Below are positions 36,588 to 40,924 of a stretch of DNA of 64,000 bases, in pieces. The notes under the pieces were generated by a model. It was given only the letters and a program-made list of their open reading frames with translations, was not told the DNA's origin and ran no database searches. Origin of the DNA: an uncultured Balneola sp. (GTDB lineage Bacteria > Bacteroidota > Rhodothermia > Balneolales > Balneolaceae). The DNA lies in NCBI GenBank assembly GCA_913058495.1, contig CAJXQC010000004.1, positions 124,001 to 188,000 on the forward strand, read 5' to 3'. The position numbers were made by a program, and so were the translations under genes. How positions within the stretch are numbered: the stretch's first letter is position 1; each line of letters begins with the position of its first letter.

Positions 36588-37698
36588 CTACAAAACAATT
36601 TCGACTTTTTTTGTAGTCATTATTACCTCATTTACTGTATTTGCTCAAACTGAATATTCAATCTCCGGCACTGTAAAAAGTCAGGTTGGTCTTGATCCAA
36701 TTGCAGGAGCTCAAATCTTCCTGAATGGTTCAACTATCGGAACGCTTTCTGATGGAGACGGCAATTTTATTTTATCAGGTATACCCGAGGGAGCTCATGA
36801 TCTGATTGTTCAAAGCCTTGGTTTCGAAAGTGTTACTTCTTTAATTCGAACGGATCATTTAGAGGATGGATACTCTTTTATAATGAAAGAGAAAGTGTAC
36901 AATCTGGATGAAATTACTGTTAAACCAAACAGCCAGGACTGGAAATACAATTTTGAACAATTTCGAAAGATGTTTATTTGTGTAGGTCCCTTTTCGAAGA
37001 ACACTAAAATCAAAAATAAAGAAGTGGTGAACTTTGATTTTGATCTGGATAACAGGACTCTGAACGCCTTTGCTTACGAAACGATTGAAGTAGAAAACAA
37101 AGATCTTGGCTACCGGATCTTTTTTTTCTTAGAGAAATTTGAGATCGACTATAAATCAGGAAGATTCTTTTTCTACGGCCAGACTTTTTTTGAAGAGATG
37201 AGTTCCAGCAGGAAAAAAACCCGGAACAAATGGAAAGAAAATCGGGAGAAAGCTTATTTAGGGTCTTTTGCTCATTTCACTAAATCTTTAATTGATCAAA
37301 AAATTGTTGAAAATGGTTTTGTTGTAAAAGCAGAAGAAAGAGACGATGATGCACGTTATTTATATACGGATACAGTGCCACAATCACAGTTTTTCCATCA
37401 AGTTGACAGCTCTTATTATGAATACAGCTTTGTTAATTTTTTGAATGTCACCTATAAAAATGAATACGAAGACATTACTTATTTGTATTCTATTGCAAAA
37501 CCCTTCGACAGCAATCCCCGTCTTTTGTCGGATTATCAAAACTCTTCCATAACACTGATCTCTGATTCAGTTCTGGTAGATAGATCCGGATTTATTCTCG
37601 ACCCAACCTCAATTCTTTTTGATGGATACTGGGCATTTGAAAAGCTTTCTGATATGCTTCCACTTACTTATGAAATACCCGCAGATTTAGGAGAATAA
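36577..37698 (+). CDS. Secreted CarboxypepD-reg-like (beta-sandwich) domain protein
   Basis: The start ATG at 36577 overlaps the kynureninase-like gene by 11 bases. The 373 residues have a signal peptide (about 1-23, ending VFAQ), and a CarboxypepD-reg domain at about 27-115 (ISGTVKSQVGLDPIAGAQIF, then GTLSDGDGNFILSGIPEG). The rest has no family I can name and is rich in aromatic residues. In Bacteroidota this N-terminal domain opens TonB-dependent receptors and many outer-membrane proteins, but no plug or barrel follows here. A periplasmic or surface role is inferred. Overlap with the catabolic gene suggests co-transcription, not joint function. Confidence 0.75.
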   Translation: MLFNYKTISTFFVVIITSFTVFAQTEYSISGTVKSQVGLDPIAGAQIFLNGSTIGTLSDGDGNFILSGIPEGAHDLIVQSLGFESVTSLIRTDHLEDGYSFIMKEKVYNLDEITVKPNSQDWKYNFEQFRKMFICVGPFSKNTKIKNKEVVNFDFDLDNRTLNAFAYETIEVENKDLGYRIFFFLEKFEIDYKSGRFFFYGQTFFEEMSSSRKKTRNKWKENREKAYLGSFAHFTKSLIDQKIVENGFVVKAEERDDDARYLYTDTVPQSQFFHQVDSSYYEYSFVNFLNVTYKNEYEDITYLYSIAKPFDSNPRLLSDYQNSSITLISDSVLVDRSGFILDPTSILFDGYWAFEKLSDMLPLTYEIPADLGE

Positions 37699-37742
37699 GT
37701 GCAAGAATTTATTTTCAGGGAAAAATCTCAAAAGACTAGCAC

Positions 37743-37770
37743 CAAATTTCAGACAAATAATACATTACAG
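37743..37770 (+). repeat. Decayed relative of the S23-element left end (1)
   Basis: This 28-base segment matches the start of the S23 element at 39342-39369 with several changes, and resembles 38459-38486 and 38694-38721. It lies 21 bases before the toxin gene stop. The base before it extends a GCACC match shared with the copy at 38459. Confidence 0.6.
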
Positions 37771-37791
37771 TATTTAAGTTGACCTTTCCGG

Positions 37792-38085
37792 TTAAAATTT
37801 AGAATCAGAAAAGTCTTGCCGGAAATGTCTTATGGTTAAAATTTCGATAGATTCATTATTGATTTCATAAATAACACCATAATTTTTATGAACAACTATT
37901 TCCCGGATTTTCTCATTATTGATTTCTTCTAAGATTTTACCGGCTTGTGGATTGGCTTTCAACCTTTCAACTTTATCCTCGAACTTATCAATGAGATTTA
38001 GGGCGGCATCCGGATTGTCTTTAGAAATATAATCAATAATCTCTCTGATTCTATTTCCGGCAGTAGGAGACCAAATAATTTTCAT
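37792..38085 (-). CDS. RelE/ParE family toxin
   Basis: This 97-residue basic protein has the RelE/ParE fold pattern: IIWSPTAGNRIREIIDYISK, a central DNPDAALNLIDKFEDKVERL, and the C-terminal VHKNYGVIYEINNESIEILTIRHFRQDF. The RHFRQDF ending is typical of ParE-like toxins, which poison gyrase; RelE-type mRNA cleavage cannot be excluded. It overlaps the antitoxin gene by 4 bases and is translated after it. It lies in the repeat-rich pocket before recA. Confidence 0.9.
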   Translation of the reverse strand: MKIIWSPTAGNRIREIIDYISKDNPDAALNLIDKFEDKVERLKANPQAGKILEEINNEKIREIVVHKNYGVIYEINNESIEILTIRHFRQDFSDSKF

Positions 38086-38363
38086 GACGAGAAATCAGAT
38101 CGTAACTTGCTAAAAAATTCCTCCTGTTCAACCCCTTCTCCATTATTTAATTCTTTACGAGCAGTTGATAGCTCCTCCAGTAACTGAATCTTATCCAGCA
38201 TTTTTTGGTAGTCTTCTACATCAATTAACACAGCAGAACTCTTTCCATGCTGAGTAAGAATAAGCGGTCGCCGTTCAGACTTAACCCTCTCTATAAAAGA
38301 TGCAGCATTGGCTCTGAAATCTGATAGTGATCGAATATCTTGGTCTAGTTGAATATGAGACAT
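38082..38363 (-). CDS. Phd/YefM family antitoxin
   Basis: I choose the ATG at 38363, giving 93 residues that begin MSHIQLDQDIRSLSDFRANA, the normal Phd/YefM N-terminus. A longer frame from 38468 would add 35 unlikely residues that run through the operator-like palindrome. The DNA-binding N-terminal domain (SFIERVKSERRPLILTQHGK, then AVLIDVEDYQKML) is followed by an acidic tail that should wrap the toxin. Together with the ParE gene it forms a type II toxin-antitoxin module, probably autoregulated from the palindrome at 38408. Confidence 0.9.
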   Translation of the reverse strand: MSHIQLDQDIRSLSDFRANAASFIERVKSERRPLILTQHGKSSAVLIDVEDYQKMLDKIQLLEELSTARKELNNGEGVEQEEFFSKLRSDFSS

Positions 38364-38407
38364 TGAAAGTGTGTTTAATTTTTGCTCTGTATAATGTACT
38401 GAATTAA

Positions 38408-38423
38408 ATACAAAATATTGTAT
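38408..38423. promoter_or_regulatory. Palindrome upstream of the antitoxin gene, likely operator
   Basis: ATACAAAATATTGTAT has perfect 6-bp arms (ATACAA/TTGTAT) around four bases and begins 45 bases upstream of the antitoxin start on the minus strand. Phd-type antitoxins commonly repress their own promoter through such sites. Binding is inferred. Confidence 0.5.
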
Positions 38424-38458
38424 CAATTTGTGAAATTGAAATTCCAAAAAAGAAGCAC

Positions 38459-38486
38459 CAAATTTCAAACAAAAAACAAATTACAG
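38459..38486 (+). repeat. Decayed relative of the S23-element left end (2)
   Basis: This is a 28-base match to the start of the S23 element with several substitutions. It is followed by a perfect 8-bp hairpin at 38501-38520 (TCCCAAGC/GCTTGGGA, loop of 4) that has no counterpart at the other copies. No gene is seen between 38364 and 38774; an open frame at 38515-38748 has no credible product. Confidence 0.6.
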
Positions 38487-38693
38487 GACTTAAATCTCCA
38501 TCCCAAGCTCCTGCTTGGGAAAGAGTTTAAATAAGCTAAATAAAAAAGCGCGTCGGGCGGTTACCCTCCACCGCTACAGGGTGGTCGATTTTACGACTCT
38601 GTTTTGTCACCGATATTATTTATTTACTTGCGCGCAATCTATTTACTTCTATTTGAATATAACATCCATTTATAAATCCCAAAAAACAAGATT

Positions 38694-38721
38694 CAAATTT
38701 CAGACCAATAATAAATTACGG
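38694..38721 (+). repeat. Decayed relative of the S23-element left end (3)
   Basis: This 28-base segment matches 39342-39369 with several changes, including loss of the ATG of the S23 gene. It lies in the spacer between the toxin-antitoxin module and the small secreted protein. Confidence 0.6.
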
Positions 38722-38774
38722 GGATTAATCCATATCCAAAGCTTCTGATTTACTAAATCCTGAAAGGAGTAATT

Positions 38775-39167
38775 TTACCTCTTTTTTACCTGTCCAAGCC
38801 ATAATTCATCATTCCACCAATGATATTGAACGAATAAAAGATTTGGAGTGTCACTTTTAATTAGTTCAACAGCAAAATCTTGGGGAAGACAAGGCTTACT
38901 TTTATCAGTTTCTTTTTGAGTTTTAAATCGTACGAATTTTTGGGATAGAGAATCAATTTCTAAAGCAAACTCGTTACATAAAGAAGAATCGAAAAAAAGC
39001 CTAAAATTATTAAGTGAATCACTTAGACTAAACGAAATCTGATATTGAGTTGTATCATGTTCAAAACCAACGAATCCCTCCCATTTACTATTTAGCCAAT
39101 TAGAAGATTGAGCCAGAACAACGCAATGAATACACATGAAAAATAAAAAAAGTATAAGCTTCCGCAT
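38775..39167 (-). CDS. Small secreted protein of unknown function
   Basis: I choose the ATG at 39167, which gives 130 residues starting with a clear signal peptide (MRKLILFLFFMCIHCVVLAQ, cleavage after residue 20). An upstream in-frame start at 39227 would place 20 hydrophobic residues ahead of it. The mature part is small and beta-rich, with paired tryptophans (SSNWLNSKWEGFVGF; YHWWNDELWLGQ) and two cysteines that might form a disulphide. I do not recognise a family. It lies in the repeat-rich pocket between the toxin-antitoxin module and the S23 element. Confidence 0.65.
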   Translation of the reverse strand: MRKLILFLFFMCIHCVVLAQSSNWLNSKWEGFVGFEHDTTQYQISFSLSDSLNNFRLFFDSSLCNEFALEIDSLSQKFVRFKTQKETDKSKPCLPQDFAVELIKSDTPNLLFVQYHWWNDELWLGQVKKR

Positions 39168-39321
39168 TGATTGTTGAATTAATATTATTCCCAAAATAAA
39201 TGAATGTACAGACATTAAAATAAACAAAATCAGTTAAGAAGCACCCTGTCTATAAATCTGATTTAAACTTTTTTTGTAAGGAATTCTTTTTTGATTGTCT
39301 TACTAAGAACCAAGGTTTGGT

Positions 39322-39734
39322 AAATCTCAATTTTCAAACTACAAATTCCAGACAAATGAAAAATTACAATCTAGAAGAACGTACATTGGTCTTTGCGAAA
39401 GCAACGAGAGTCTTCGTTAAAAAACTTCCGCGTTGTACTTCTAACTTCGAAGATGGTAAACAGTTGATCAGGTCTTCGGGTTCTATCGGAGCAAATTATA
39501 TAGAAGCCAATGAAGCTTTGAGTAAAAAAGACTTCAAAATGAAAATGAAGATCTCCAGAAAAGAAGCTAAAGAAACATGCTACTGGCTTAATTTAGTTGA
39601 TACCGGTACTGATCAATATCTTGAAAAAGAACGATCAAATTTACTGGATGAGACAACGCAATTATTGAAAATAATGTCTTCAATTATCCTGAAAGCTGCT
39701 TAATTTGGAATTTGAAGTTTGAAAATTGTGATTT
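39322..39734 (+). mobile_element. S23/IVS-like element: four-helix-bundle gene inside 29-bp terminal inverted repeats
   Basis: The left arm (39322-39350) and right arm (39706-39734) are complementary at 27 of 29 positions by hand count. They flank the gene closely: the left arm ends 5 bases before its ATG and the right begins 2 bases after its stop. The whole unit is 413 bp. A transcript could fold into a long stem that loops out the reading frame. This is the organisation of the intervening sequences (IVS) found in 23S rRNA genes of several bacteria, but here it stands between genes. No target-site duplication was identified. Confidence 0.65.
39356..39703 (+). CDS. Four-helix bundle protein (S23/IVS family)
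   Basis: I choose the ATG at 39356, giving 115 residues; a longer frame from 39317 would start in the inverted repeat. The sequence has the S23 pattern: LEERTLVFAKATRVFVKKLP, then QLIRSSGSIGANYIEANEAL, then KMKISRKEAKETCYWLNLVD. These form the helices of the pentameric four-helix bundle first described from 23S rRNA intervening sequences. No activity is established for the family; a nucleic-acid-binding role is often proposed. It is the only gene in the inverted-repeat unit. Confidence 0.9.
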   Translation: MKNYNLEERTLVFAKATRVFVKKLPRCTSNFEDGKQLIRSSGSIGANYIEANEALSKKDFKMKMKISRKEAKETCYWLNLVDTGTDQYLEKERSNLLDETTQLLKIMSSIILKAA

Positions 39735-39759
39735 AAAAAAGTTTAGAAAAAACTTTTTT
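39735..39759. terminator. A/T-rich hairpin after the S23 element
   Basis: A perfect 10-bp stem AAAAAAGTTT/AAACTTTTTT (39735-39744 with 39750-39759) around 5 bases abuts the right inverted repeat. The 3' T-run fits an intrinsic terminator on the plus strand, and it would insulate recA from upstream reading. Confidence 0.6.
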
Positions 39760-39770
39760 CTTACATATAT

Positions 39771-39784
39771 CGAACATATATTCT
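39771..39784 (+). promoter_or_regulatory. LexA-type SOS box upstream of recA
   Basis: CGAACATATATTCT agrees with the Gram-positive-type LexA consensus CGAACRNRYGTTCG at 12 of 14 positions by hand count. It lies 41 bases upstream of the likely -7 element and 79 before the recA ATG. That is the expected gene for SOS control, though the position is a little far from the promoter core. Confidence 0.55.
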
Positions 39785-39862: not shown

Positions 39863-40924
39863 ATGGCTGACTCAAAAGAAAGATCTAAAGCATTAGATAT
39901 TGCCGTCGGGCAAATTGAAAAACAACACGGGAAAGGAACCATCATGAAGTTGGGCGGAGACGCCGTTCAGGATGTGGACGTTATTTCAACCGGTTCCATT
40001 ATGGTAGATTATGCATTGGGCGTACAAGGTGTGCCGCGAGGTAGAGTAACGGAAATTTACGGCCCGGAAGCGAGTGGTAAAACTACTTTGGCACTACAGG
40101 TAATTGCACAAGCACAAAAAAATGGCGGATATGCTGCTTTTATTGATGCGGAGCACGCCTTCGATCCCAGATATGCTAAAGCATTGGGGATAAAAGTTGA
40201 CGAACTTCTTGTATCACAACCTGATAACGGTGAACAAGCACTCGAAATTACAGAAACATTGATTCGCTCCGGTGCGCTGGATGTGATCGTTGTTGATTCC
40301 GTAGCAGCACTGGTTCCGCGTGCGGAACTGGAAGGCGAAATGGGTGACTCTCATATGGGGCTTCAGGCGCGACTGATGTCGCAGGCACTCAGAAAGATCA
40401 CCGGTATCGTAAGTAAATCTCATACTTCTTGTATTTTCATTAACCAGGTTCGTGAAAAGATCGGAGTTATGTTTGGTAATCCTGAAACCACTACTGGTGG
40501 ACGCGCACTTAAATTCTATTCTTCTGTTCGTCTGGACATCCGCAGAATTGGAGCTATTAAGAAAGGTGATGAAGTAATCGGTAACCGGACTAAAGTAAAA
40601 GTTGCCAAGAACAAAGTGGCCCCTCCTTTCAAAGTGGTTGAGTTCAATATCATGTATGGAAAAGGAACTTCATTGATTGCTGAGATACTGGATCTGGCTG
40701 TTGAATTCGATGTAATTGAAAAACGAGGTAGCTGGTTCCGCTATGATGGCGAACCTATCGGACAGGGTGCTGACGCTGCAATGCAGTTTCTGGAAGAAGA
40801 CCCCAAGCTATGTGCAAGCATTGAGAAACTGGTACGGGCTAAACTTCGTGGCGAGGAACTGGATGAACCTATTCCTGATGCATCCAAAGAGAAGGAAAAA
40901 GAGCCTGAAAAAGCTGAAGCCTGA
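39863..40924 (+). CDS. recA: Recombinase RecA
   Basis: This 353-residue strand-exchange ATPase coactivates LexA cleavage in the SOS response. Visible motifs are the Walker [10 protein letters not shown] at 67-75, the loop [16 protein letters not shown], and [20 protein letters not shown], which covers the L2 DNA-binding region. The C-terminal tail is acidic and Lys/Glu-rich, as usual. A LexA-type box and a TAACTTTG -7 element precede it. recX follows behind a terminator hairpin, so most transcripts probably stop after recA. Confidence 0.98.

Follow-up and report, generated by a model that had tools for sequence, protein, structure and literature searches.

An S23 gene between inverted heptad arms in front of recA in an uncultured Balneola: a possible single-gene mobile element

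An S23 gene between inverted arms

The window (the whole 64-kb stretch of DNA that was analysed) belongs to a genome of 3.4 Mb in 47 contigs from an uncultured Balneola. Directly behind a promoter-like motif and in front of recA (39863..40924, + strand), the anchor for our comparison of filled and empty sites, lies a 0.4-kb unit made up of one small gene and a pair of inverted arms. The gene (39356..39703, + strand) encodes an S23, or 23S-IVP, four-helix-bundle protein of 115 aa. To our knowledge the function of S23/IVS proteins has been unknown ever since their discovery in rRNA intervening sequences (IVSs), and we know of no catalytic site in S23. The window protein is a clear member of the 'four helix bundle protein' genes grouped as PF05635 and TIGR02436, matching the former at E 3.6e-15 (56.5 bits, curated cut-off 33.8) and the latter at E 1.1e-20 (73.9 bits, curated cut-off 24). 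It also matches a relative of solved structure, PDB 2rld_A, at 3.4e-13; 2rld has five chains, and a Xanthomonas S23 protein is reported to be a homopentamer (PMC4990558).

From position 39322 the left arm (39316..39350, + strand; core 39322-39350) reads as the five heptamers AAATCTC, AATTTTC, AAACTAC, AAATTCC and AGACAAA, which reach the ATG, and the right arm (39706..39740, - strand; core 39706-39734) is its inverted copy. The initial annotation had described terminal inverted repeats of 29 bp that lie close to the start and stop codons and enclose nothing else, and this description is borne out. The cores pair at 27 of 29 positions and the extended arms at 31 of 35. Five nucleotides separate the left arm from the ATG at 39356, the right arm begins 2 nt past the stop codon at 39701-39703, and the S23 ORF is the sole ORF between them, with no recognisable transposase inside the unit. 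The arms form the longest inverted repeat among those listed for the 64 kb. At 1,679 other places in the window, tried with the same arm geometry, the score was at most 17.5, against 27 at the S23 unit, and none of 5,000 Markov-shuffled flank pairs reached 27, the best scoring 25.5. Folded as RNA, the 461-nt stretch around the unit gives z = -3.4; an Rfam search of the whole window at gathering thresholds returned no match.

The motif in front of the unit (39269..39303, + strand) has the form TTTTTTTGTAAGGAAT-N-GTCTTAC, with a core GTAAGGAA...TCTTAC at 39276-39303. Behind the unit a LexA-box-like sequence, ATATATCGAACATATATTC (39765..39783, + strand), is conserved in front of recA whether or not the site holds a unit, as judged by sequence comparison. 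The unit lies between protein genes, with recA next downstream, and so is not inside a 23S rRNA gene.

S23 genes elsewhere and the heptad structure of their arms

Is this unit an isolated case? The initial annotation called it an orphan, a label that does not fit. S23 genes outside rRNA are common: this genome has 11, and in a search of relatives they turned up in 41 of 58 genomes, with up to 16 per genome. At eight of the 11 the gene ends carry an inverted repeat scoring at least 14, where the mean of neighbouring ORFs is 8.8. Among the others, L002 has a weak flanking repeat (13.0), L007 has no arm by this score, and L005 has an arm seen by BLAST and a frame interrupted by a stop codon. Each set of arm sequences in the genome is different, and a search there for close DNA copies of the window unit returned nothing beyond the partner arm and weak matches that resemble arms. 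As a side observation, L001 and L005 have similar arms of AAGATTT type, and each of these two genes stands directly before a thiolase-like gene (judged by eye from the first residues) whose start falls at the arm end.

Beyond this genome, a search with the window protein found arms of the window type on relatives in the CPR, Planctomycetes, Nitrospirae, Deltaproteobacteria and other groups, for example AAATTCGAAGCACGAAATCCGAAACAA. The inverted repeats of S23 units score 18.4 on average, against 8.8 at 391 neighbouring ORFs, and the median arm is 42 nt long. The arms are periodic. Over the 49 nt that precede the start codon, base autocorrelation peaks at lags 7 (0.445) and 14 (0.408), where shuffled sequences give 0.31; after the stop codon the values are 0.466 and 0.424, against 0.31-0.32. 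Upstream of the start the periodic zone covers some 40-50 nt and downstream of the stop 60-70 nt, and no lag-7 periodicity was seen upstream of 267 control ORFs. Of 116 non-redundant S23 units from many phyla, 94 have 7 as their best lag in the range 3-12, as opposed to 10.8 in shuffles.

Arms match their own partners. Over 147 distinct units the left arm scores a mean of 18.4 against its own right arm. When arms were swapped the score was 15.3 between units whose proteins are 60-70% identical and 8.3-9.4 where identity is below 50%; swaps inside a unit's own genome gave 8.8 (six units only), and swaps from one genome to another, in most cases across phyla, gave 15.5 where the proteins share at least 50% identity. 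These graded swaps replaced a first swapped-arm control in which only 4 of 112 units rose above its 99% level, a control that was too strict because relatives have arm words in common. The comparisons show that arm sequence follows the protein clade and not the host, and that the arms, matched to their own partner, co-diverge with the S23 protein. They also show, at the level of sequence similarity, one and the same arm type with closely related proteins in many phyla. Phylum labels on the S23 protein tree change 41 times, compared with 43.8 when shuffled and a minimum of 23, and are thus scattered nearly as widely as random labels, a count that comes from few columns and a tree with many open forks, and from MAG bins that may contain stray contigs.

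Presence, absence and turnover of units

Among congeneric genomes the recA site carries the unit in G000, G001, G003, G006 and G007 and is without it in G002, G004 and G005. Of 21 further readable recA loci in the family six have an S23 gene, and filled and empty sites occur inside two more genera (G062 and G012 versus G030; G017 and G032 versus G064). In G079 the unit lies downstream of the LexA-like box, that is, at another position than elsewhere at recA. Three more units, B, C and D, near a thiolase locus are likewise present or absent among congeners. The suggestion in the initial annotation of a tiny mobile unit gains from these empty sites, from the other S23 copies and from the arms of the same type on S23 relatives in other phyla. 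Presence and absence as such may reflect gain or loss, the sequence comparisons being unpolarised.

At radC two S23 types that are 38% identical occupy the same site, one in G000 and G007 and another in G001, G003, G006 and G004. In G001, G003 and G006 a right arm of the first type lies outside the right arm of the second type; this outlying arm is a scar of turnover. Independent insertions at recA across the family were considered and set aside: the recA-site proteins fall in two groups, yet a single clade is compatible with the data (p-AU 0.56). The copy in the window has probably been resident for a long time, and a single lineage with several losses could account for the S23 units that precede recA across the family.

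The four intact orthologues at the recA site form six pairs, of which five have a dN/dS of 0.10-0.13 and the closest has 0.25; the gene is thus under purifying selection, and the protein matters. In the G003 copy, two single-base indels shift part of the frame, as seen by eye. No clean target-site duplication was seen; candidate repeats at the recA site, TCTTAC or TCAAAAA, are of low complexity and divergent. No recent transposition was seen in the own genome, where the 11 S23 copies have diverged from each other.

A motif held in common with DNA-uptake and recombination genes

The strict form of the motif in front of the unit matches once in the window, where 0.01 matches are expected, and 18 times in the genome, with none for a reversed control; a relaxed form matches 104 times in eight congeneric genomes, again with none for the reversed control. 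We infer that TTTTTTTGTAAGGAAT-N-GTCTTAC is similar to promoters read by an alternative sigma factor. Behind 97 distinct sites stand S23 genes (16), Y1 transposases (16), GIY-YIG genes (at least 14), DUF559 (6), radC (5), ssb (5), GxxExxY (4), recA (3), ComM/YifB (at least 2) and two integron-integrase-like recombinases, in calls where, behind a short first ORF, the next gene was sometimes taken instead. The pneumococcal 'ComM' is a different protein. Three of the 11 S23 genes in the genome stand right behind its 18 motifs (p ~3e-5, assuming 3,000 genes), and about half lie away from the motif. S23 genes adjoin recA, recN, radC and comM in this genome and likewise in several congeners; in the other phyla sampled, no S23 gene was found beside recA, recN, radC, comM or ssb, and the neighbours are other genes.

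What kind of gene set is this? Transformation genes of Haemophilus parasuis include radC, comM, recA and ssb (PMC5809987), and the late competence genes of pneumococcus include radC, ssbB and recA (PMC6560143). Given this overlap with transformation and late competence genes, we read the motif set as competence-like. Going by gene content, it could alternatively be a regulon of the DNA-damage response. Two further observations concern the motif. S23 unit D (L150, 7676-8155; also L151 and L165) has the promoter-like motif inside its arms, and the integron-integrase-like tyrosine recombinases behind the motif (L182, L269) match TIGR02249 over the N-terminal 130 residues scanned.

A candidate mobile element that acts at the level of DNA

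Beyond the initial annotation, the present analysis adds the heptad build of the arms, the link between arm type and protein clade, and the motif held in common with DNA-uptake and recombination genes. We propose that the S23 unit is a single-gene mobile element that acts at the level of DNA and has probably spread by natural transformation, a reading to which we give a probability of about 0.5. The motif would be a promoter that is turned on during DNA uptake. An S23 oligomer might bind its own arms, perhaps with one heptamer per subunit, given that a relative is a homopentamer and the window arm has five heptamers; five and five may also be a coincidence. Aided by the imported single strand, RecA and ComM, the protein-bound arms could steer the unit into intergenic gaps. 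The heptad arms, the clade coupling and the link to recA, recN, radC, comM and ssb thus lead to a testable guess about what S23 binds and when. If the proposal is true, natural transformation has its own class of minimal hitchhikers.

A broader picture, tentative and rather doubtful, would make S23 units a widespread, unrecognised class of transformation-coupled mobile elements. In it a pentamer with no known catalytic domain would read inverted heptamer arrays, one heptamer per subunit, and place its own gene in intergenic gaps by way of the DNA-uptake and recombination machinery of competence; 23S rRNA IVSs would be members of the class whose landing site was an rRNA gene, and just one product of a more general mobile element that acts at the level of DNA. 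In the searchable literature, where subscription journals and preprints are mostly outside coverage, we found no description of heptad arms or of an S23-associated regulon. S23 genes have been reported inside CRISPR-cas loci (PMC3936711) and within insertions in the rRNA of CPR bacteria (PMC11270868), and Avd of the diversity-generating retroelements has been described as homologous to PF05635 proteins (PMC10053308); on casual inspection, neither a reverse transcriptase nor template or variable repeats were noticed next to the window unit. With DNA transposons and MITEs the S23 unit has in common terminal inverted repeats and filled and empty sites among relatives; it differs from them in having no recognisable transposase.

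Could the S23 gene simply be at home where it is found? It might be a resident accessory gene of a DNA-recombination or competence regulon, its arms being relics of mobility or regulatory, and its presence and absence resulting from loss and homologous recombination. Purifying selection on S23, the location beside recA, recN, radC and comM in several congeners, and recA-site copies that are compatible with one clade all agree with such a gene. This account is nevertheless unlikely, as it does not lead one to expect arms that are matched to their partner and to the protein clade across phyla, two S23 clades at the radC site together with an arm scar, or neighbours that differ in other phyla.

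The proposed DNA-level element has also to be set against the IVSs of 23S rRNA in Leptospira, Coxiella and others, to which the initial annotation likened the unit. Gene family and layout do agree: the protein family is the same, the size is about 0.4 kb, and terminal inverted repeats surround the S23 ORF. In contrast to IVSs, the window unit lies between protein genes, as that annotation had said, and is linked to a set of genes for DNA recombination. A search of the own assembly for LSU rRNA gave none. In Coxiella the S23 ORF of the IVS is preceded by heptameric repeats (GACAGAT), and RNase III excises the IVS (PMC4990558). One may therefore imagine that the arms of the window unit pair in a transcript and that RNase III frees the S23 message from the flanking mRNA; the ability of the stretch to fold (z = -3.4) and the tendency of S23 genes to lie in the sense of their neighbours (89 versus 17 upstream, 78 versus 19 downstream) would fit. 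If a sense-RNA helix were conserved, mismatches between arms that still allow a G-U pair in sense RNA should exceed their mirror type. The counts are 154 and 142 (p = 0.52), or 131 and 125 in a non-redundant set, which suggests that the arms are conserved as DNA and not as an RNase III stem. Nine S23 units, moreover, lie antisense between two genes. Excision by RNase III, offered in the initial annotation as a reason for the arms, is thus decidedly improbable in that role, although such a stem may still be cut. The window ORF is under purifying selection, whereas the Coxiella ORF is reported to be in reductive evolution, and in the arms no selection for RNA pairing is apparent.

Least probable of all is a passive unit moved by another enzyme, for instance a Y1 transposase (IS200/RAYT type) that belongs to the same regulon and acts on hairpins: Y1_Tnp genes do have the same motif, and several have hairpin repeats alongside, but arm type tracks the S23 clade, and S23 arms lack the short GC-rich hairpins of Y1 and GIY-YIG genes.

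Arm-like repeats and other small units

REP/RAYT systems (REPtrons) and IS200-type elements resemble the S23 unit in having one small gene within inverted, hairpin-capable repeats between genes, and in this genus such genes have the same motif. They differ in that S23 arms are long AT-rich heptad arrays, whereas theirs are short GC-rich hairpins.

In the window, three arm-like repeats without an S23 gene lie upstream of the unit, at 37723..37777, 38439..38493 and 38674..38728 (all + strand). The first resembles the left arm together with the first codons of the gene. These repeats, family D2, are 71-80% alike and recur in the corresponding interval of four congeners. Between the upstream gene and recA (window 37698-39320; L311, L312, L313, L314), such 55-nt repeats bracket cargo that differs between congeners: a RelE/Phd toxin-antitoxin pair in G000 and, by alignment, also in G006, and a Y1 transposase in G006 and G007. 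To judge from its sequence, the interval 37698-39320 resembles an array of cassettes whose junctions are arm-like.

Elsewhere (L169, L171, L172, L185, L214, L259) GIY-YIG, DUF559 and Y1 transposase genes stand behind the motif with inverted hairpin repeats on either side, as in the repeat GGTCATCCCGAACTTGTTTCGGGATCTT of GIY-YIG genes, and at several of them the motif falls inside the flanking hairpin repeats. These genes are further tiny single-gene units. A REP-like hairpin, CCCAAGCTCCTGCTTGGG, lies at 38497-38515 in the window and recurs next to the G006 gene for a Y1 transposase (L259).
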